A DNA stretch of 64,000 nt, from positions 1,243 through 65,242 of the forward strand of contig BDIU01000219.1 in NCBI GenBank assembly GCA_002118135.1, written 5' to 3'. Origin of the DNA: Trebouxia sp. TZW2008 (lineage: Eukaryota; Chlorophyta; Trebouxiophyceae; Trebouxiales; Trebouxiaceae). The translations under genes were made by a program, and so were the position numbers. Within the stretch, counting starts at the first letter, position 1, and every line of letters starts with the position of its first letter. Below are positions 20,660 through 35,300 of this stretch, one piece after another. The notes below the pieces were generated by a model. That model did not search any database. It was not told the origin of the DNA and was given only the letters and a program-made list of their open reading frames with translations.

Positions 20660-22632
20660 TTACTGTTTATCGCTTTTGCTATCTGCATCAGCATCCACCA
20701 TGCCAACATCAGCATCAGGACTGCCTGCATCTGCAGCGTGGGTTTGTTTGGTGGCTATATGGCTTGGGAGGTCTGTCTCTTTGACCGGTTCAGCTGCTTC
20801 AAGCACTTTTGGTGCTGCTAAGGCTTCTTGGGCAGCATCTGCAGCTTTGCCTTGCTTGACCCCGGTCAAAGTCTGCACATTTGAGTCATCACCAGTCTGG
20901 CCATGCTGTGGCACTGACTCTTGTGGTGCAGCTTCCATGGCGTCTATTGACGCAGGTTCTGTTGCTTTGCTGGATTTTGCATCTGGGTTTTCGCTTGGTT
21001 CTACTGCATCGCCTTCTGATGATGAAGCATTTGTGGCTTTACCACTGTCTTCAACAGGTTTCAAGCGCTTCTGGGCCTCAGCATGCCAGATGTCATATGT
21101 GTCAGCCCCAAACAGCACAAAATGCACCTCTTCCAAAGCACCACACCCTTCCCAGCATGCTCTGATGGCAACCTGCAGCAGCATGGGGCTCATTGGGACA
21201 ATCTTTAAACGTTGTCATGCCCAAGTACTGTCAGGAAGGCATGCAATGGGTGCAAAAGCACATGTTTGCATGGAATGCTTGCGCCATTATACACCGCTGT
21301 GCAGATTACACGCAACACACGTACTCAATGAGAATATCTGACTGAGTTGTAAGGGCATATGCCACTCAGATGCTCAAACACAGCAAGCCAAAAACAAACA
21401 CATCCAAACATTGTGCATGATCTGGCTATGCTCAGGCAACCTAGGCTGTAAGTGATGTGAGTGAGGCATCAGCAGGATTTAGATGGTCAGGCAAGCTTTA
21501 CCTGGCAAGCTGCCTCCAAAGGGTAACCATAAATACCACAGCTGATGGCAGGAAGTGCCACTGTTGCAGCACCCACCCCATTGGCAACAGCCAAAGACGC
21601 CCTAAGCACAACAAACAAACTGATACTCTGGACATGGTCTTGTGAGGGCTTGTCTGTAGGAGCAGCATTATGCAAGTGCTATGCTCATGACAGCTTCCGG
21701 CAGGAGCTGAGCAGAACAGAGATCTGCACAGTCATGCATGGTCCCTAGAGCGCTGACATTGCTGTGTTGATGTCAGCAGCAAAGCTTGGCAATCAGTAGA
21801 GTATACAGGCTGCCAACTCCTAACACAGTTGCAGAAAGCTGACATAAGTGAAGGCAGAGTTGCTGCTGGTTTGGGGAGCTTGAGTGGTGCATGTGCTTAC
21901 CTGTATGCAGATGTAAGGTCTGCCTGACTGCCCCTGGAATTGCCTTTGCTGTAGATGGGGCCCACTGTATGTATGATCCATTTGCAAGGCATGTTGTATG
22001 CTCTGCACAGCAGGTGGAACATCAAAGATTTCCAATACACCTGTGCTGCTGCCCTTAATAAACCAAAAGGCATTTCTCAAAGCAAGGTGTATGAAGCATT
22101 TGTCTTGCTGAAGAAATTGCATGCACTTTGCTTTTCAACTCGATATACAGTCGGCACAACTCACTTGTGGCAAGCCAGAGTACTCACAATGTGATCCTGG
22201 CATCTCCAGTGGGACACCGCTCATTGATGATGTCTGGGTAGCGTCTGCAAGCTTCCACAAGTTCTGGTCCTGCCGCTCTGTGAATGGCTGCGGAGGTAAG
22301 GCTGGTTGCGTCAGAGTTGAGTATTGCAGGTGAAGCATGCAAGCTGAGCGCTCTTGCATGCATACGGCTGTTCAAGCTGTTGACGCTTGACGGCACGAGC
22401 TTGGCTCATGAACACACCTCCATCTACACCTCCACCTCCTAGCATACGCTCGTTGGCTGCACGGTACACCACTGATTGATGGGGCTGATCAAACGTGACC
22501 TCGACGAGGCTTGAGATTTCTGCGCAGCTTACCCGCGTTCACGACAGCATCTCCTTGCCATTGAGTGATGTCGCCTTTCTGAATGACAAGCTGAGACTTG
22601 TTGTTCAAGTGATACCTAGCCGAAGATGACAT
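20660..22632 (-). CDS. MacroD-type macrodomain ADP-ribosyl hydrolase with acidic tail
   Basis: MacroD proteins remove mono-ADP-ribose from acidic residues and hydrolyse O-acetyl-ADP-ribose. Exons on the minus strand: 22632-22533, 22456-22418, 22287-22188, 22002-21901, 21601-21502 and 21172-20660. Phases agree and the total is 318 codons. The ADP-ribose site is complete: GDITQW near residue 20, VVNAANERMLGGGGVDG at about 30-46 with the catalytic-loop Asp45, HTVGP, and the second loop PAISCGIYGYP at about 131-141. The fold ends near residue 184 with VHFVLFGADTYDIW. Beyond it comes a low-complexity tail of about 130 residues rich in Ala, Asp, Glu and Ser, which is not part of the enzyme and may be an interaction or nuclear region. 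There is no clear targeting peptide. Exon 2 is only 39 nt. Confidence 0.93.
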
Positions 22633-23976: not shown

Positions 23977-26900
23977 TCAATGTAGAGACTGGCCAGGAGC
24001 AGCAGAACTGCCCTGCCCCTGTAACATGCCCTGGGGCTGGTCCAGGTCAAAGGAGGCCTCGCTCTTCAGGGTTTCAGAGCAACCAGGCCCCATTTTGCGC
24101 TTCTTCAAGTCCTTGGGCTTGCGATTGTTGAAGAAGTTGTGGAGACGCTCCTGATCATAGACACACAGCATGTCACAAACTTGACTTGCATAACTAAGCA
24201 ATCGAAGAAACACAGCATGCCACAGACTGGACTTGTGAAACTTGTGACTGCTGCCCATGGCTTGTCAAGATACAAATCCCAGTCTAAATACTTGCAGTTA
24301 CAGCTGTGCAGACAAGCACTGTCCTGGGCATAGACGCACAGTATGCCACAGACTTGACTTTTGGAAACATAGACAAGTTTCCATGTGAACTGTGCAGCGC
24401 ATTGTGACCACAGACATACAGCATGCCACAACTTCAACGTGCCAAGTTGTGTTCCCACCGTCAATGGTGATTGTGCAGACACTGCTGATGACAGCAGACA
24501 CACAGATACACAGCAAGTCAAAGAATTTGACACAGCAGTCACTGACATGTCATACTATTGTTGCTGGGCTTTGTGCAGCCAGCTCTGAGCACAAGGATAC
24601 AGCACGTGACAGCCAGAGGAAACACAGTCCTTGCTGATCAATACTATTCCAGCATGACGTCAATGCAGGATGAATGCCAGCAGGAAGCTCGACACTCCTG
24701 ATCTCATACTTGAGCCAGATCATGAGTTCAACAGGGCTTTGTGATCAGTGCCGCCGTGAGATGAAATTCTGACCATGCTGATGTCAAAGTTGATGCATGC
24801 TGATGTTGATGCAGTGGTTTTTTCACATCACTGCATCAACATGTCAGAAGTACCTCTGACTTTAGCACCGTGTCAGGCTGTGAATGCAGAATTGTGGATT
24901 TGACGAGCAGGGGATACTCAGCTTGCTGATCTTGTACTGGGTGTAGAAAACGTGGTCAACAGGGCTTTATGTTCAGTGCTGCTGTGCGAGGAGTCTCTGA
25001 CCTTGCGCTCAGCAGGGTCACAGCACTATCTGAATTGCATACTTGTTTGTCAGTCTTAGCATGGATTCTGACCTTGCTGATCTCGTACTTGGTGCAGAAC
25101 TGCTCTCTTGCCTCTTTGGCAACAGACAGCAGGCTCCAGTTAGCTTCCTCTGCCAGGTCAGTCAGGGCCGTCAGCTGCTCATCAGTGAAGCGCTTCCTCT
25201 TGTTGCCGTTTGCCTCATCTAGCGGGTCAGACCTGCAACAGCCGCTGCATTGGACTTGTGTGCTTTTGTGTGACTCGTGTCCAGCTTTGCTGCATGGATT
25301 GCCTCTGTGACATGCATAGATGACGAAGGGATTGAGTGAGGAAGCGAAGGTGTGAATGGACGAGCGGATGAGTCTCAGAGTGAAGCCCTGCTCTTCATGA
25401 ACTGGATGCATGAGTAACAGGGGGTGTGAGTGAACGGATGACTGAGGTGGTGGTTGAGCTGCATGGATGAGTGCAGTGGTGCATGCACGGACAGACAGAT
25501 GGAAGTGAGCATAGATGGCTGATAATATGCAGGGTGTCAGAATGAAGGCGGTGGCAGACTGTTAGATCGACAGATGAACAGACAGACAACAGACAGATGA
25601 ATGTGAAGACGCTTGTGTCTTCATGAGCAGCTCATGGGACTGATGACCAGGCATGGTTGAATGCATTGAGGAATTAATGCATACCCTCTGGTGTAGGAGG
25701 TGTACTTGGCACTGGAGCCGCGGCACAGCTCACTGGGGTACTTGTCAGCATTGGCTTGCATCTTACGCTGCCTGTAGTGCACACGTTGCTGACACGCTAG
25801 CGATACTGTTCATGACATGAAAATCTAAAGAAGAAGTTGGCTGAGAAGGGCTGCATACACATCTATCAAAGGTGGATGATGGCAAACGTCACAGATCACA
25901 CAGGATGTGATACAGCATGTTGTGCATGACCTTCTGTGTGTCTTGGCTACAATGCTAGAGTTGCGAAGAGAAAAGGCTCCTTGCTGCATTTGACATGCAG
26001 CTAAGACAGCATGCAGCCAAAGAACCGTAGCTGAAGGCTGCTGTAATGGCGAGACTTGTCACAACTGTTGTGCCGTCCTCAGTAAATGATGCTATGCACA
26101 GCTGATACAACGAGACTTGGTCACCTCTCAATGCAACGAGCTATGAACTGCTGGTACAGTAGGGGCTGAATAACGCCATGTCATGCACTGCTGTTGCATG
26201 ATGACTAGGTGACTTACACTGCAGCAGCAAGGTCAATGCCGCAGACATCTGCCAGGCGCACCAAATACAGCAGCACCTGCAGCAACAGGCTCAGTAACAT
26301 CAGCTTGGGGTCAATATGACAGAAGTCATGTCGTTTAGCACATGCAGATGGCCCTGATCTGCTATGGTGAACATCAGCTAGGCTGGTCTGGTTTCACACA
26401 TCTGAGCTGATAGAATGATGCCCGTTTCAAGCTGCGCAAGAGGTATTGCACAACTTGTACAAGTAGTATACGCTACATCTGTGCCTGATGAAAGCAGCAA
26501 CGGATGACAATGCAGGTCATTGGTTCAGGAAAGAACCTGCCTGTATCAGCGGGGAAGGTCTGCTGATGTGACATATATGCTACAACAGACTGTGAGCATT
26601 TGGGGAATTTGGGAAATAAATATGTTCCAGTTGGTGATGTGCAAGGGGCAGTGTGACTCGTAATGAGACAAAGCAGAATGAGCAAGAGGCTTGGGACTTG
26701 CGGCAAGCAGGGCAGCAAACACAATAAAGCATTGTGAGATGCTTACATCAGACATTTCTTCCCCTGTATGTCGCTTCTCGTCAGGGGTGAAGGTGGGGAG
26801 CCCCCGGGTGACCCCCTCCCCCCGCCACTGGAAAATCTCTGACAGCTCCCCTACCTCCGCCACCTGCAACACCACAGCGAATAAGCATTCATACGAGCCC

Positions 26901-29900
26901 TAACAAACGCAGGATATGGATCGCTGCATTGCTGCATGTGCAATGCCTTGAGAAACTTCATCCTCTGAGCAGTGCAGCCGTTTCACGTGCAGCTTTGCTC
27001 TGCTTTGCCACACATCCTTTGCATTGTTTGTAGCTCTACGCTGCATACTGTGACTACATTTGCATATATACCATTGTGGCAATGCTTTCTCATACACTTG
27101 TACATGGATTGGTGAGAGTTATCAGGCTTCTTCTGCTGTTTCAGCAGCAAGAGGGTGCTGATGGCATCAGTCTGGGAGCTGAACCAAATGTTGGACTGCG
27201 CCTGAATTCAGGGTTGAGATCAACTCTGCAGACTTGCATTGAAGCCAAGCCCAGGAAAAAGACCGCAGGGCAAGCTTAACCAGCCTGAGCTCAAGCAAAT
27301 GCCGTGTCACTAAGCTGCTTTTGTCTCATACCACATGTCTGCAAGCTAAGCAACTCATGCACAGATTCAATGGTGTAGGTTAGCACAGGACCAAACTGGT
27401 TGAAGACAATTGATTGCTTCAGCATGTACCTAGCTGGGCCTGCTGAGCCTGTTTAGCATACACTCACAATGAATGAATGAATGAGTGAGCAACTAAGCTC
27501 ATTCTAGAGCAGTGAGACTGACAGAGCTGCTTTCATTGCTAAAAGCACATGCAAAACAGCATCCGAATATGCTAGCACATTTTCCAGAGAAACAGAGAAG
27601 ATCTGCCTTGCCAAGGCTCGCATCTCAGACATCTTGGTGGGCAAATGCATTGCAGGGGCTTTGCAGATTGTTGAGAGCCATGATGCTCTCAGGGATTGTT
27701 GTTGATCTGCAGGGAGTCTGGGCGTTGGGCGCTTTGCTGGTGACATACAAGCACGCGTAGAGAAAATAAAACTGTACTGCTGCTCATAAGTCACCTAGTA
27801 CATATGCGAGAATGTGTCATGATGATGATGATTATGCCTATGTTACTGTTAAAATTCAGATCGTTATCATGGATCAGTATGATCATTGTTGTCAAAAGTT
27901 GGCAGCAAATGGCTATTTCTGGCATTGCTGTTGTTTGAAATAGTGCTAATGAAGGAGCTTTGCTGATGGCATGCAAGCATGCAATGAGGACCTGAAATTG
28001 TACTGCTGCTCAGTACTTGCGCCACACAGTACATGTGCCACATGGTGTCATGATAATGATGATGATGATGTCGTTTATGATCACTGTCAAAATACTTCTT
28101 GCCATGGATCATTGTTGTCAAAAAGTGGCAGCAAGTGGCCATTTCATAATTGCTGATGTTGGTATGGTGCTGATGAAGGAGCTGAAGGCCAAGTTGTTGT
28201 CACATGCATGCTCTGAGGACATTGGCATATGCTTTGGCTTTGATGCTGTGTTGCACAATCGTGCTGCAGCTGGCAGGACACAACTGGCGGACCAAATCAG
28301 CTGGAGCTTGATTACAACACAGCATTGCAGCCAAAACATATGCCAGCATACTCAGTGCCCGCCTATGTCAAGACCTGAACAACCAGCTCCTTTAGCATCA
28401 GTATGGCTTTGGGCCAGATAGCAGCTGCACAGAAGCTGTACTCAGCCTGCGGCTATTGCATGAGCCAACATGTGTCATGGTGCTCTTGCCTGCTGTTGAA
28501 GAGTAAAACCCAAACGCTGCAATCTTCCTGAAACCGCCTGACAGCATGATCGTTTTATCTTGTCTTGTCCTTTCTCTTCTAAAAAAGCACATAACAAGTG
28601 TGGGCTGTCTTCTTGTGCAAGCTGGTCTTTGCCGAATTGTGGAAACAGTGGAGCAGAACCATGGCTTGGTGCACTTTGCTATGCAAACGCAAGCTGGTGA
28701 CTCAAAGTTGGTGACTCTCATTAGGGTTCCTCACACCAATCAGTCAAGACAAGCAGACTTGGGCTAGCAGCGCAATTATGACCAATGCTGGAGCAAGGAA
28801 CTGAGGTGGTATGAACCTGTTTGCAGGCAGTCAACTTGGTATCTGAGAGTGGTATGGACAAGCATTGAGCTGTAAACCAGCTTTATTGGAAAGGCAGAAG
28901 GGCTTTGTAAGCGGTGTTGACTTGTTGAGGCTGAGCTTGCCCCGTTGTTGCTCAATGTTGTCTTTGCTGAGCGATCAACCATGCTGTCACATGCCTTACA
29001 GCCAGCTGGCTACATGCTGAGCTGCATCCTCTTGAAAGATCTGTTATGTGCTCAACACAAATCTGGAGTTTTTGGCACAGAAGTTGTGCTCTTCTGCACA
29101 TCCTACCCTTCGGCCTGCTCTGCACTTGCATGTACAGGGTTTTTTGGTGACAGCAACTTTAACCTGGTACAGACTCCATACACGATTTCCAGACAACAGC
29201 ATCTGAAGCCGATCACATGCCTATCTTGCTATGACAGGCCTGAGATGTGCCTTGCAGACACAGGCATAGTAGGCGCTGCTATAAGGGTAGTTCACCATTA
29301 GTCAATGTCCTCTTCTTGATGTGACTGACACTGCCATCAGTTGCATCAGTGAACCACCATACTCTCCATTCCAGTGGTTGATACTCTTAGATACTTGCAT
29401 AATGGGTAACAGGTACTGGCGCCACGTATTGCGTATTCCATGCTTTGCACTGCTTCTCGGTGATCCATACTCTCAAATACTGCGTACTGCGTGTTACGTA
29501 TCGGGTATTGAGTATTACGTATGGTGAATCACTGAGCTGCATGCAGTGAAGCTGCATGATACTGGCAAGTGCTGTCCTGTGCACAGTCCCAAAGCTGCTT
29601 GCCAAGCCTCAAGGGGAAGGAGCAGAAAAGCAGAACCCAGAGCTGCTTTTGTAGTTGAGCACAAGCAGGATTGAGACTGAGCAACACTGAGACTATAACG
29701 TTTCAAGATTTGCTTTGCTTACCAGGGCAAACAGTAGGTTTCTAGGCGAATGGAACTTCTCCCACTCCCTGTCGGCAGCAAACTTCTCTGTTGCTGCTCT
29801 CAAGTCCTCCAGCGTTGTATGGCTGAAATGGTGCTGCAGCAGTGGCTCAGCAGCAGCTTGTTGCAAAGGAACAACTGGGCTGGCTGGCAAGCGGCCTATG

Positions 29901-31497
29901 GCAGCTGCTGTTGCTGCTGCCACTGCTGATAGATCTGCTGATCCTGCCAGCATCTGCCGAGAGCCTACACAGCCGATACAAGATTAGTGAATGTCAAAGA
30001 CAAGAGCAGCAGCAGTCATTGGTGCTACAGCAAGAGCCCAGCAGCAGCGGCCTGGTGCAAAGGGACAACTGGGCTGGCTGGCAAGCGGCCAATGGCTGCT
30101 GCTATAGGTCTGCAGATCCTGCCAGCATCTGCCGAGACCCTGCAAAGCCATTGCATGATCCAGTACATTGCATGAGTCAAGAGTGAAAAGGAAATGGCTA
30201 CAGCTGTTGCTGCTGATTGGTCTGCTGACCCTGCCAGCATCTGCCTGGACCCTGCACGGTGGAAATCAGAACCAGCAGTGTTAAGGCATTGTGGCGAATG
30301 TGGTACTGTAGCAGCGGTCCAGCAGCAGCATTCTCATGCAAAGGGACGACCAGGCTGACTGGTGCTTGGCGTATGGCGGCTGCTGTTGCTGCTGCCACTG
30401 CTGATAAGTGGACCTTGCCAGCATCTGCTAGGACATTACATGCTCAACACAGTAGTCAACGGTGACCATGACAGGGCCTCTGCTGATGGCTTATGCAATC
30501 CTTGGCAAACTTTATATCAAGTGGTCGCTGCTACTCCTGCTACCACTGCTGACAGGTCAGTAGGTCTGATAAGCACTGACTGAGACCCTTCACAAGCTGC
30601 AATCTGGGACGTGTTCCTACATGGGCATTTTCTGTGACATTATGTGGCAGGTGACTACCTGAAGGTGATGCATCAGAAGCCTCCCTGTCTGTGAGCTCAT
30701 GCTGCAAGCCATCCAGCCTTGCATGATGCAAAGCAGGATGCACTTGCTGTGACAAAGCGGCTTGCTGCTGCTGGTGATGCTGATGCTGGTGCTGCGACTG
30801 TGACTGTTGTTGCTGCTGTTGCTGAAGAGGCAGGTGCTGTGAAAGGCTCATGAGCTGCTTGGGGTGACCATGAGCCCTCAAAGCGTCAAGCAAGCTGGTG
30901 GGGTTGGTATCGTATAGGCCTGTCTGAGGGCTGAGGCGTTGTGGCAAGGACACACTGCGCTGATGAAGCACCTGCTGCCCCAGCGCATGCTGACTGAGGG
31001 CGTGCAGTGATTGCTGTGAAAAGCCGCCAAAGGAAGAGTTGAGCTGAGGAAACTGGCTTGATAGGGTATGGAAGTTATCTGCAAGTGGATAATCACTGAA
31101 TCTTGTGCAGGGTGCAGGTGAAGGTTAGAGAAGGCTTGCTCTTTCAGCAGAACGTATCAAGTACTGAGATGTGCTTACCTGCATCGAAGTTCTCGATGTT
31201 GATGCCATGAAAGGGGTTTGCAATACCTGCAAGCAAGTCGATATAACTGCATCACCGCGAGACGGTACGGCCTGCTTGTCGTGGTGTGTGTCACGAGCGC
31301 TACGCAGATTCGTGGGGTTGACACGGTGACACAAGTGCTAGCTGCTGCCAGCAGCTACAATGAAAACGCAGACCGGTTCAGCGGACCGCTTTGCCGAGAC
31401 ATCCCTGGATCAAGAGAGAAGTGAGCGCGGCTTGAAGCAGCGTACCTCTTGTGTCGGAGTGATCATCTGGCAATAAATGGTCGTCACGGTCGCCCAT
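23977..31497 (-). CDS. dCTP pyrophosphatase-like domain fused to homeodomain-like domain
   Basis: Exons on the minus strand: 31497-31446, 31226-31179, 31078-30659, 29964-29723, 26863-26747, 26276-26218, 25771-25685, 25232-25073 and 24150-23977. Every junction agrees in phase; the total is 453 codons. Residues 1-170 are low complexity, with Gln/His runs near 30800. About residues 223-341 match the all-alpha NTP pyrophosphatase of human DCTPP1: FHSPRNLLFAL, EVGELSEIFQW, EEMSD, LLYLVRLADVCGIDL, NADKYP and RGSSAKYTSYTR. The four metal ligands are present (Glu257, Glu260, Glu290, Asp293), so dCTP or modified-dCTP hydrolysis is plausible. Residues 353-415 have homeodomain size and pattern: basic arm KRKRF, then a recognition-helix-like LHNFFNNRKPKDLKKRK. 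Asn403 and Arg405 sit where homeodomains have Asn51 and Arg53; Trp48 is replaced by Asn. A 37-residue tail follows. Nuclear, DNA-bound nucleotide sanitation is an inference. Confidence 0.82.
24160..24620 (-). repeat. degenerate array of acceptor-like segments before the homeodomain helix-3 exon
   Basis: On the plus strand, cacagcatg(c/t)ca with a following ac(a/t)tga recurs near 24165, 24210, 24340, 24415 and 24500, with a weaker copy near 24600. The copy nearest the exon at 24150 is the true 3' splice region. The others look like duplicates of it within the same intron. Confidence 0.65.
24680..24960 (-). repeat. decayed copies of the homeodomain exon-8 end and donor
   Basis: Exon 8 ends with codons for FCTKYEISK and a GTCAGA donor at 25073. 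Two downstream copies, near 24945-24905 (reading TQYKISK) and near 24720-24690, align with this end. Both are followed by related intron sequence (tcaacagggcttt and agtgc motifs). Confidence 0.7.
27375..27490. mobile_element. partial copy of the MITE-like element, opposite arm
   Basis: The stretch carries agctgggcctgctgagcctg followed by gaatgaatgaatg. This is the reverse complement of the arm seen at 44334 and 15523. It lies in the long fourth intron of the dCTPase-homeodomain gene. Confidence 0.7.
27720..28190 (+). repeat. tandem duplication of about 230 bp in an intron
   Basis: Segments at about 27725-27960 and 27960-28185 align over most of their length. Both start gctttgctg(g/a)tg, and both have actgctgctca, gtgtcatgat(g/a)atgatg, ggatca and tgttgtcaaaa in the same order. 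No coding function is evident. Confidence 0.7.
30010..30450 (-). repeat. three decayed copies of the Ala-rich exon-4 start
   Basis: Exon 4 (29964-29723) encodes MLAGSADLSAV and RLPASPVVPLQQAAAEPLL. Related segments occur at about 30150-30040, 30260-30195 and 30440-30305, reading for example RLPASPVVPLHQAAAAG. Each lies in the intron 5' of the exon. Confidence 0.8.
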
Positions 31498-32390: not shown

Positions 32391-35300
32391 TTAAGCTGTT
32401 TCTTCTTTTGTTGCAACAGCCTCACTGCCTTGTGGTTGGGGGCTGCTCGCCGCGCTGGCATCAACAGTAGCTGCATTGTCAGTTGCTGCTTCACCAAACT
32501 CTGGTCCCTCTCTGATGACTTGAGCATTGGTGGCAGGTTGCACAGATGGTGTTTGTGTATCAGCTGTTTCTGCTACCTCACTCATCAAGTCAGCAGGTGC
32601 TGGTTTCTGGTCGCTTTCTTGCAGCTGGGCTGTTGTTTTGGCCTCAACTTGTTGATGCTTGCCATCTGTTTCTAAACTAGCATCTGCTTGGTCTGCTGCT
32701 GGATTAACAGAAGCAGGTTCTGCATGTGCAGGAACTGCATTTGCTCCAGCAGCAGGCTCTGAAGCTACTGGGTCGCCATCCTGAATCGCAGCTGCTTGTT
32801 GAGCCAAACCACTGACTGCTGCATTTGATTCAGCAGCAAGCCCGGCAGCTTCTGGCTTGCCTGCCTGAGAGATAGCTGATGCTTGCTGAGGAGCAGCACT
32901 GACCTGTGCATCAGGCTTGGCAGCGCCAACCTGTACCACATCACCTGCTAGCTGTTGGTCGGAAGCAACCTGGTGAGAGCCTGGCTCAGTGCTGTGGGCA
33001 GCCGTCAGGGGTACATCCTTACTGGCATTTGTTGCTTCTGCATTCATGGCTGTGTCTGCATCAGACTTGAGAGTGTCTTCTGCTCCAGACTCCATGGCTT
33101 CAATAGCAGCAGGTGTAGCTTCTGTCATGACTGTGTCCTCCTGTTGCTTGAGACCTGTGAGCCATGAACATGCCATATTAGCACATGCTGCTTGAGGCTG
33201 GCAGCATTTGAATGAGCACCACATTGGGCAATGCCTCACAGCCGGTAAAGGCAGAAGATATGCAGCGATAGGCAAGCTGGTGGCCTGCAGGAACAAGTCA
33301 TTGCACAGCAGATAATGCAACACATCTGGTCAGAGCTGCATTCTATGCAGTTTAGCTGCATGCAGGCATGCTGAGATGCATGATGTCAGATGTTTTGGGC
33401 TGCAATGCTGAAGGGCAGTGGGATTCACAGGAACAAATGCATGCCCAAACCACACATGACATACTGTACAAGTAGAATCAATGAGCTTGAGCATCCTGCC
33501 TGACCCTGAGTGCCATCAGATGCAGAAAGTGCAGCATTGTCATGACCCCTATTGCTTCTAAAGTGACCTGTGTTGTCACCAGATTTGGGTTGTCGCACAG
33601 CTTCCTGACCTTCCAAGGTATACAATGCACAGAGCGTAGCAGCTTCTTGGATGTCGCTGCCAGTATATGGAGAGCAAAGCTGAGCTAGCTGACCTTCAAT
33701 GTTACTTCACTGCTAGTTAATGCATGCAGAGTGAGAGACAAATAAGCTGATCTTCATTGCCATACAGTACGCTGTGCAACAGCCATTTTGCGCCTGATGC
33801 ACGCAAAGTACAGAGCAAATAGCTGACCTTCATTGCCATACAAACCAATGTGCAGCAGCTATTGCACTGCTGATTCGTGCAGAGTGAGAGACAGCCAGCT
33901 GACCTTCATTGCCATACAACACAGTGTGCAGCAGCTACTGAATTGCTAGTGCTAGTCCATGCAAATAAAAGGCCAAACAGCTGACCTTCATTGCCATACA
34001 GTCCAATTTGCCACACCAACGTCCCTGCTACAGTGACTTCTGCTTGTAGGGATTCAGTGTCAAGACATTCTCGACGACAATGTCACTAGGAACCAATCAG
34101 TGTGTTCTGACTGCAATGGCACCTCTCCTTTGATATGGACACTTCAATGTAGCGACGGATTTGTTCGTGACCAATGCCTTATAAAGAGAAATTACTGTGA
34201 TCCATGCAGTGTAAAAAGGAGCTAACTAACCTTCACTGGCATCAAATTCAGTGCATGTCACAAACCAGACTATAGAGGAGCTGGCCAAGTGGCATCAGAT
34301 GTAGAGAAAGGAACAGGTGACTGACCTTCACTAGCGTCAGATGCAGAGCGTGCTACAGCTGCCTTTGCAGGGACTTTCTTAGCACCAGGCTGAGGGGGGC
34401 TCTTGAGCTCAATCTTGGGCTTTTGCCAGTTGGTTGGCACCTTGTCAGGATATAAGTCAGCAAATGCAATCTCCAGTCTTTCTGCTGGGCTATCCATTTG
34501 TGTGGCGCGTTCCCAGATGTCAACACCTTTGCGCTGCAGCATGCGCTGGGCTCTGAACAGGTACAGGGGGTCAACCCCACCAGGAGCGTTGGCATTGGCG
34601 AACTGCAGCAATAAGTTCACATAGTCAGAATCTGAATGCTGCTTGTCAGATAGTAGGAGAGGGTGAAAATGACAGCTTGGCGCTTGTGCAAGCTGAGCAG
34701 AATTCAACGTCAGAGACCCAAGACTGCTGCTTGTCAGCGACCAGAACAAGATCAAGAGCCAGCTTAGCCTATGCACAAACACTGGAGCTCTGGAGATTCT
34801 GCTGCGCAGCATAAGCAACCTGTGGGTTGTTGATTTGGATGCCCACGAGAGCAGTTGGAAGAAGAAACCTCTGTGACACCAAATTTGTCAACAGCGAGCA
34901 AGATGCAAGTTGCAGACGCAGCAAGCAGCTTGTCATGCTGAGCGTTGTCATGTCATATACTACTGAGCAGACACTGACTTGGGGGTCTAGCGGAGCTGTA
35001 ATCAGGTCTATGCACAATGCCATTGGCATTGCCATTTTGGAAAACACATGACAGGCTCTGTAGCTTCAGAAGAACAATAGGTTTGAGCAATAAAACCTCT
35101 GCATACCTGGTGCTTCTTTCTGAAGTCGCCCAGATGTAGCTCCTTGCCTATTTGTGCAAGATGCTGGTCTGTGGTTGGCAGCATCTGCTGGTCCCTATTC
35201 TGCCTGTAGACGTCTTCCTCAGCACCTGAGTTGTCCCACATCCTGAGACACACAGAACCAGAAATGTGACATAGCCCCGACATGTGATGTTGCAGGTTGT

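Follow-up and report, generated by a model that had tools for sequence, protein, structure and literature searches.

Gene Structure at the Fusion Locus

The window, that is the whole 64,000-nucleotide stretch of DNA analysed here from the lichen-type green alga Trebouxia sp. TZW2008, carries on its minus strand (31497-23977) a gene of nine exons encoding a DCTPP1-type enzyme domain followed by a homeodomain. Splicing yields 1359 nt, corresponding to 452 aa and a stop codon, and all introns (8/8) are of the GT-AG type; the spliced translation thus bears out the single continuous frame of 452 residues proposed in the earlier note. Exon 1 (31446..31497) contains the start codon (MGDRDDHLL...), with a start similar to that of the homologue P0001, and is followed by exon 2 (31179..31226) and by exon 3 (30659..31078), which encodes a Gln/His-rich region. 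Residues 1-221 contain 54 Gln and His residues, in agreement with the Gln/His-rich part that had been described in front of the enzyme. A TFIIA match to residues 67-212 (20.6 bits, cut-off 36.2) was taken as a composition effect.

The DCTPP domain begins within exon 4 (29723..29964) at about position 29821 (residue 222) and continues through exon 5 (26747..26863), encoding E257, E260, E290 and D293, and exon 6 (26218..26276), encoding the helix past the second ligand pair with Y297, to its end (KYP...GSSAKYT) in exon 7 (25685..25771). Decayed partial copies of exon 4 lie at 30030..30406, on the same strand, inside intron 3 and outside the coding frame. Beyond the exon 7/8 junction at 25685/25232, exon 8 (25073..25232) encodes the linker, the homeodomain arm (homeodomain from about 25201) and helices 1 and 2, as placed by means of the P0002 model, and exon 9 (23977..24150) encodes the recognition helix LHNFFNNRKPK (to about 24091), a basic tail and the stop. 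In the Pfam scan of the window protein, MazG (PF03819), HTH_32, MAM1 and HTH_NDX gave scores below their cut-offs.

The Trebouxia proteins P0001 and P0002 show 79% identity to the window protein, with an alignment covering 100% of the two-domain region. The window protein and P0001 share identical residues at 57/64 positions of the homeodomain and 93/120 of the DCTPP domain; the N-terminus of P0001 reads MSDREDHLL (MGDRDDHLL in the window protein) and the tails are similar (18/38 residues). Since start and tail resemble those of P0001, the gene model is independent of a single assembly.

The DCTPP1-Type Enzyme Domain

DCTPP1, which clears surplus or modified dCTP, generally occurs as a short, free enzyme. 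Residues 257, 260, 290 and 293 of the window protein are E, E, E and D and align with E63, E66, E95 and D98 of mouse DCTPP1, which we take to be the metal ligands (mouse numbering), and this alignment confirms the full set of four metal-binding acidic residues first read from the sequence. Counterparts of W47, W73 and Y102 (the last being Y297), presumably residues of the base pocket, are all present, and the model of the homologue P0018 predicts the all-alpha DCTPP1 fold. Tandem forms of DCTPP1 also exist.

Among 30 aligned fusion sequences, the four metal ligands are complete in 28 and K121, N125 and Y129 are kept in all 30, while W47 is found in 28 (with two gaps), W73 in 29 and Y102 in 27. 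Loss of metal ligands with retention of the homeodomain was seen in an Ostreobium protein and one MMETSP protein, the ligand positions reading D, Q, E, D in P0028 and N, E, H, Q in P0052. P0052 keeps the homeodomain through FFNNR and has a decayed DCTPP part; in P0200 the metal site is damaged, as judged by reading the sequence, and the homeodomain is kept. That P0028, P0200 and P0052 retain the homeodomain despite a damaged metal site is what one would predict were DNA binding of use by itself.

Searches of the organism's own genome with the window's domain, P0134 and the Chlorella protein P0040 as queries did not find a second DCTPP1 gene; only four places matched, corresponding to exons 4-7 of the fusion gene. 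A family search of the same genome with PF12643 gave no match and missed the fusion locus too, with matches in 6/14 controls, probably because introns split the domain, whereas the single-protein queries worked. Family searches with PF00046 and PF04770 gave no match in the genome and none in the controls either, and so carry no weight. As no second DCTPP1 gene was found, the fusion protein probably must supply the enzyme function.

The Homeodomain and Its Class

The homeodomain extends from K353 to about residue 415. The earlier note had described a homeodomain-like module behind the enzyme and had made its reading depend on a three-helix fold of residues 353-415; structure predictions on homologues show this three-helix homeodomain. 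In the P0018 model both domains have pLDDT values of about 89-98 and match DCTPP1 and homeodomain structures, and the linker is of low confidence (49-65), so that no rigid coupling path is visible. In a first model (P0002) the DCTPP part was poor, with blocks at 44-71, a problem that a deeper alignment cured for P0018.

Regarding diagnostic residues, the window homeodomain has R, F and N at R5, F49 and N51, presumably contact and core positions (homeodomain numbering). W48 is replaced by F, a conservative change, in the window and in 22/24 sequences of an alignment of 24 fusions (A1); the frames of the remaining two are broken. In A1, R5 and F8 occur in 24/24, and F49, N51 and the motif FFNNR in 22/24; in the two proteins that lack FFNNR, the reading frame departs from the homeodomain. 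Across 19 complete fusions selected for alignment (A2), NFFNNRKP and R5 are invariant. Symbiochloris P0130 has I in place of F49, and P0030 and P0035 depart from the homeodomain consensus after NLT, a departure point that differs from that of four fragments supporting a shared intron.

The Pfam homeodomain PF00046 scored 15.3 bits against the whole protein and 19.6 bits against the isolated piece, below the cut-off of 22.9, and was matched at E 0.01 or better by 7/24 fusions. The ZF-HD homeodomain model TIGR01565 scored 31.5 bits (E 1.2e-7) against the window protein and 40.1 bits against a Bryopsis piece, both under the curated cut-off of 57.45, and in the own-genome search it matched only the fusion locus (25.1 bits). 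When a profile of the fusions was compared with nine reference homeodomains, ZF-HD was scored best. By profile, the homeodomain thus most resembles the ZF-HD class of land plants, at scores below the class cut-off; contrary to this assignment, a phmmer search with the window homeodomain alone scored goosecoid (24.5 bits, gapped) above ZF-HD chains (18.2 bits). The ZF-HD zinc finger PF04770 was found neither in the window protein nor, at E 0.01, in the 24 fusions.

A TALE homeodomain was rejected, there being no match to the TALE-type Pfam family (Homeobox_KN) and a Meis homeodomain reaching only 6.0 bits with the fusion profile; a WUS homeodomain reached 2.1 bits. 'WOX' proteins are listed for Trebouxia arboricola and Codium fragile in an excerpt of PMC6788696, and these may or may not be the fusion homeodomain under a different name. 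A homeodomain-only search with the P0128 region, in which 12 candidates were scored, returned seven proteins, six with DCTPP sequence and the fragment P0201; it did not reach ZF-HD proteins and is too narrow to exclude a homeodomain without DCTPP.

Distribution Across Algae and Related Fusions

The homeodomain is present in 32 further proteins, some of them fragments, which form 22 groups at 85% identity. Both profiles are matched by 30 homologous records, some of which are partial and not all of which are independent, and the named carriers of the fusion belong to three core chlorophyte classes, the Trebouxiophyceae, Chlorophyceae and Ulvophyceae, so that the domain pair that had been suggested for a search in other chlorophytes is indeed found there. 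Against the possibility, raised at the outset, that the two parts are transcribed separately, ORFs from three transcriptome records of relatives (P0015 mmetsp, P0024 TRINITY, P0052 mmetsp) join both in one frame. P0120, which is nearly identical to the Trebouxia protein P0001, shows the order of parts found in the window protein, and its read-through of introns falls at two positions that agree with those of the window. Gln-rich tracts are seen at one end or at the opposite one.

A profile scan of the protein set also revealed DCTPP without this homeodomain in Astrephomene, Edaphochlamys, Pleodorina, Dunaliella, Chlorella and Micractinium, and the link between enzyme and homeodomain is therefore not obligatory in green algae. 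In a DCTPP tree of 74 sequences, including 27 fusions (LG+G4, midpoint root), the fusions were not united, and fused and stand-alone chlorophyte proteins were intermixed with weak support. Strong groups comprised 11 fusions including Bryopsis, Ostreobium and Symbiochloris (100) and four Trebouxia proteins (99), and the fusion P0024 paired with a Rhodosorus protein (85). The tree does not settle between loss of the homeodomain in Volvocales/Chlorellales and retention of a separate paralogue. The fusion is real, old and selected.

In liverworts, DCTPP is joined to a Myb/SANT domain (PF13837) in 4/4 proteins scanned, from the three genera Marchantia, Riccia and Calypogeia. As in the algae, enzyme and DNA-binding domain share a single protein, but the DNA-binding domain is unrelated and N-terminal rather than C-terminal of the enzyme, which would suggest a separate origin. 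DCTPP also adjoins many unrelated Pfam domains (methyltransferase, oxidoreductase and others) in homologue records, some of them probably mis-joined gene models, and these many neighbours weaken the argument from the liverwort fusion. Together, the presence in three classes, the failure to find a second DCTPP1 gene and the liverwort fusion suggest that a connection of dCTP metabolism with DNA has been selected.

Proposed Function

A head for sequence-specific DNA binding is, to our knowledge, an unexpected addition to a free house-cleaning nucleotide hydrolase. No paper describing a DCTPP-homeodomain fusion was found in the literature searched, and the homeobox and MazG matches listed there were unrelated as far as their titles and the opening of their abstracts indicate.

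The reading that we favour, while stopping a little short of calling it probable, is of an active dCTP pyrophosphatase and DNA binder serving as a nucleotide-responsive regulator that still catalyses and would be an analogue of NrtR from bacteria. From the computed architecture, homologue folds, site residues and conservation we infer that the DCTPP1-type head would hydrolyse dCTP and C5-modified dCTP to the monophosphate and would form a tetramer, presenting several homeodomains together, and that the ZF-HD-like head would bind specific DNA. Occupancy of the pocket by dCTP or 5-methyl-dCTP might then alter how the protein binds DNA at its targets, perhaps genes of dNTP supply or S phase. A fuller proposal, which we hold more loosely as one possibility, is of a eukaryotic regulator that would sense a DNA precursor directly, a working dCTP/5-methyl-dCTP pyrophosphatase acting as sensor for the homeodomain to which it was joined before the core chlorophyte classes split, and of a second, parallel evolution of this principle in liverworts with Myb/SANT, the homeodomain being an algal relative of ZF-HD and the enzyme replacing the zinc-finger dimeriser.

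The near-universal catalytic site would fit an enzyme equally with a sensor. The earlier note had considered both an enzyme acting at chromatin and an enzyme fold turned into a ligand-sensing or dimerisation domain of a transcription factor. The homeodomain could do no more than anchor an active pyrophosphatase to chromatin or retain it in the nucleus, where dCTP or 5-methyl-dCTP would be removed at replication with no nucleotide-driven regulation, and active-site residues intact in 28/30 sequences and the lack of a second DCTPP1 gene in the genome searches speak for such an arrangement, as does human DCTPP1, which according to an excerpt of PMC7162842 is nuclear, cytosolic and mitochondrial and keeps the dCTP/dTTP/dUTP pools balanced. 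We nevertheless regard it as rather unlikely, because free diffusion of dNTPs should leave little to gain from tethering, because a recognition helix invariant in the 19 selected fusions, from three classes, exceeds what nuclear retention needs, and because some proteins without the metal site retain the homeodomain.

Less probable still is a transcription factor that co-opted the pyrophosphatase fold as an oligomerisation platform in place of the ZF-HD zinc finger, the chemistry being incidental. ZF-HD as the best class by profile, the failure to find a zinc finger, the Gln-rich tracts at one or other end and the loss of metal ligands in P0028, P0052 and, by reading, P0200 would all suit it, but of a mere scaffold more frequent decay would be expected than is seen in a set where 28/30 retain the four ligands and the base-pocket residues are similarly kept. 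That two adjacent genes were merged by a wrong splice model, as placement of the two parts on separate exons might suggest, is highly improbable in view of the 30 records matching both profiles, three of them from transcriptomes, and of the read-through in P0120.

The fusion suggests that there may be direct wiring between the metabolism of DNA precursors and the binding of DNA; on the fuller proposal, dNTP pools would steer gene expression with no signalling cascade in between. The fusion is also relevant to how the ZF-HD homeodomain class arose, a family stated to be absent from chlorophytes in excerpts of PMC3880041 and PMC6189526.

Comparison With Known Systems

Compared with DCTPP1/RS21-C6, the all-alpha, MazG-like NTP pyrophosphatase (PF12643), the domain is here placed mid-protein, with a homeodomain behind and a Gln/His-rich part in front. 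The ZF-HD (PLINC/ZHD) proteins of land plants are similar in that the homeodomain gives an ungapped alignment with 1wh5 and 1wh7; they differ in the recognition helix, VWLHNNK/IWMHNNK as against NFFNNRKP in the fusion, and in carrying a separate zinc finger (PF04770, ZF-HD_dimer), which was not found in the window protein. The Nudix-related transcriptional regulators NrtR/AraR of bacteria, described in an excerpt of PMC4666351 as dimeric and ligand-switched, likewise combine a nucleotide-hydrolase-type fold and a DNA-binding domain in an oligomer and thus set a precedent for the favoured reading. Membership of the NrtR family was nevertheless rejected, as the domains of the fusion are MazG-like and homeodomain, all-alpha in the enzyme part, and not Nudix and winged helix; moreover, the catalytic motif is impaired in NrtR/AraR according to the same excerpt, whereas it is kept in 28/30 fusion sequences, a contrast that weighs against the nucleotide-responsive reading.

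Gene structure and copy number

Splicing of the window sequence joined nine minus-strand exons (exons 1 to 9 at 31497-31446, 31226-31179, 31078-30659, 29964-29723, 26863-26747, 26276-26218, 25771-25685, 25232-25073 and 24150-23977) into one frame of 452 codons plus a stop with GT-AG at all eight introns, bearing out the continuous nine-exon, 452-residue frame proposed in the earlier note. Residues 256-337 matched the MazG-like family PF12643 (Pfam, 35.7 bits, cut-off 27), and residues 353-408 scored below the Pfam Homeodomain cut-off of 22.9 (15.3 bits for the full-length protein and 19.6 for the piece on its own). The single reading frame has RNA-level support, since the transcriptome-derived records P0015 and P0052 (MMETSP) and P0024 (TRINITY assembly) carry homologues.

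Exon 4 has left degraded, incomplete duplicates of itself in intron 3, just ahead of it, at 30030-30406: two of 96 nt (68 and 77%) and two of 68 nt (72 and 76%), as if exon 4 had been duplicated repeatedly; these may be alternative or dead exons. The next gene downstream of the fusion (~22310-22630, minus strand) resembles a macro-domain protein (GDITQWQGDAVVNA / AANERMLGGGGVDG), its joined 43-residue piece scoring 18.3 bits for Pfam Macro, under the cut-off, and upstream lies a long Ala/Glu-rich open frame (32391-33329, minus strand) matching no Pfam family above cut-off.

Within the 68.5 Mb genome (527 contigs), each of three DCTPP queries (the window's own domain, record P0134 and Chlorella vulgaris P0040), with matches reaching down to 45% identity, found four places, which are exons 4-7 of the window gene. 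No second DCTPP gene was detected in this genome with these queries, which a strongly diverged copy could escape.

Distribution of the fusion in green algae

The domain pair, described in the earlier note from the window alone, was found in other chlorophytes, with 30 homologues matching both DCTPP and homeodomain and named species in three classes. Among the best 120 of 141 matches, the nearest proteins with a species name are a pair from Trebouxia, which share 79% identity with the window protein over the entire two-domain region, so the source alga is probably a Trebouxia or close to that genus. This homeodomain occurs in at least 32 proteins besides the window's (22 groups at 85% local identity), drawn from the best 120 of 141 and best 120 of 1447 matches and retrieved with both domains as query, a count uninformative on homeodomains without DCTPP; P0030, P0033, P0035, P0120, P0124 and P0201 are fragments or broken frames. 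The DCTPP profile matched all 30 first-found proteins, P0120 at just 27.8 bits; of two found later, P0200 has a MazG-like domain and the fragment P0201 has none.

By class lookup, the named carriers comprise Trebouxia sp. C0009, Trebouxia sp. C0010, Myrmecia bisecta and Symbiochloris irregularis (Trebouxiophyceae), Polytomella parva and Chlamydomonas eustigma (Chlorophyceae) and Ostreobium quekettii (Ulvophyceae), together with Bryopsis sp., which we take to be ulvophycean. Among the set collected, proteins of Astrephomene, Edaphochlamys, Pleodorina, Dunaliella, Chlorella and Micractinium have DCTPP without this homeodomain.

Origin and catalytic site

The incomplete proteins P0120, P0033, P0124 and P0201 depart from the homeodomain consensus directly after the lysine at the window's last-intron position, and the next residue is valine in all four, as expected from a GT donor read through; in P0030 and P0035 the consensus is lost elsewhere. 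We read this intron, from these sequences, as common to Trebouxia-like and Bryopsis/Ostreobium-like algae, which would argue for one old origin of the fusion. In the tree of DCTPP domains, however, the fusions do not form a single group.

Metal ligands E,E,E,D are present in 28 of 30 aligned fusions (the window and 29 homologues, with P0120, P0200 and P0201 left out). The exceptions are P0052, which has N,E,H,Q and also altered base-pocket residues W73 and Y102, and P0028 from Ostreobium, which has D,Q,E,D. Y102 is replaced by H in P0026 and P0124, and P0200, another protein from Ostreobium, has DVGQ in the corresponding stretch of the metal site. The homeodomain of P0028, P0200 and P0052 is unbroken through FFNNR; therefore the chemistry has mostly been kept by selection, and the homeodomain can outlast it. 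P0052 combines a homeodomain near that of Trebouxia with a badly decayed DCTPP domain, and is possibly, judging by sequence, a purely DNA-binding offshoot.

Novelty of the architecture

Full-text searches of the open-licence literature found no paper combining homeodomain and dCTP pyrophosphatase, DCTPP1 and Chlamydomonas, or Myb, dCTP pyrophosphatase and Marchantia, and none describing a DCTPP-homeodomain fusion as such. Among the open-licence matches listed, by title and start of abstract, those for homeobox and MazG were unrelated to the fusion and those for Trebouxia and homeodomain had other topics; the word stem 'pyrophosphat' is absent from the main text of the green-lineage TALE gene papers examined. 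The Polytomella protein is labelled 'Homeobox domain-containing protein' in UniRef, so automatic annotation has already caught one half. WOX sequences reported from Trebouxia arboricola and Codium fragile in passages of PMC6788696 could be the fusion homeodomain by another name. What is new is the architecture; both component domains are of known kinds.

Comparison with other fusions and proposed function

Among the best 120 of 141 matches, DCTPP adjoins many unrelated domains, some of these pairings probably being mis-joined gene models. Two or three tandem DCTPP domains per protein were seen in P0005, P0006, P0007, P0008, P0010, P0123, P0125 and P0126, records that are by name oomycete, mollusc, annelid, chytrid and brown alga, plus unnamed ones. 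All four liverwort proteins scanned (P0044, P0047, P0050 and P0056; Marchantia polymorpha, Riccia fluitans, Riccia sorocarpa and Calypogeia fissa) have Myb_DNA-bind_4 (PF13837; 53-59 bits, cut-off 27) and DCTPP above its cut-off. Their Myb/SANT-like domain precedes DCTPP, whereas the algal homeodomain follows it, and the three placed in the DCTPP tree fall among other streptophytes, apart from the algal fusions. We infer that a DNA-binding domain was joined to DCTPP at least twice, on opposite sides, with the caveat that the unrelated pairings noted above include probable gene-model errors.

DCTPP1 is a tetramer, and one homeodomain on each subunit would make the fusion a multivalent DNA binder. 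According to passages of PMC7162842, DCTPP1 governs dCTP, dTTP and dUTP pools and its in vitro substrates include C5-modified dCTP. The main rival reading is an enzyme simply tethered in the nucleus. We favour a regulator that would both hydrolyse and sense dCTP, by analogy with the bacterial NrtR and AraR, Nudix and winged-helix regulators, as portrayed in parts of PMC4666351.
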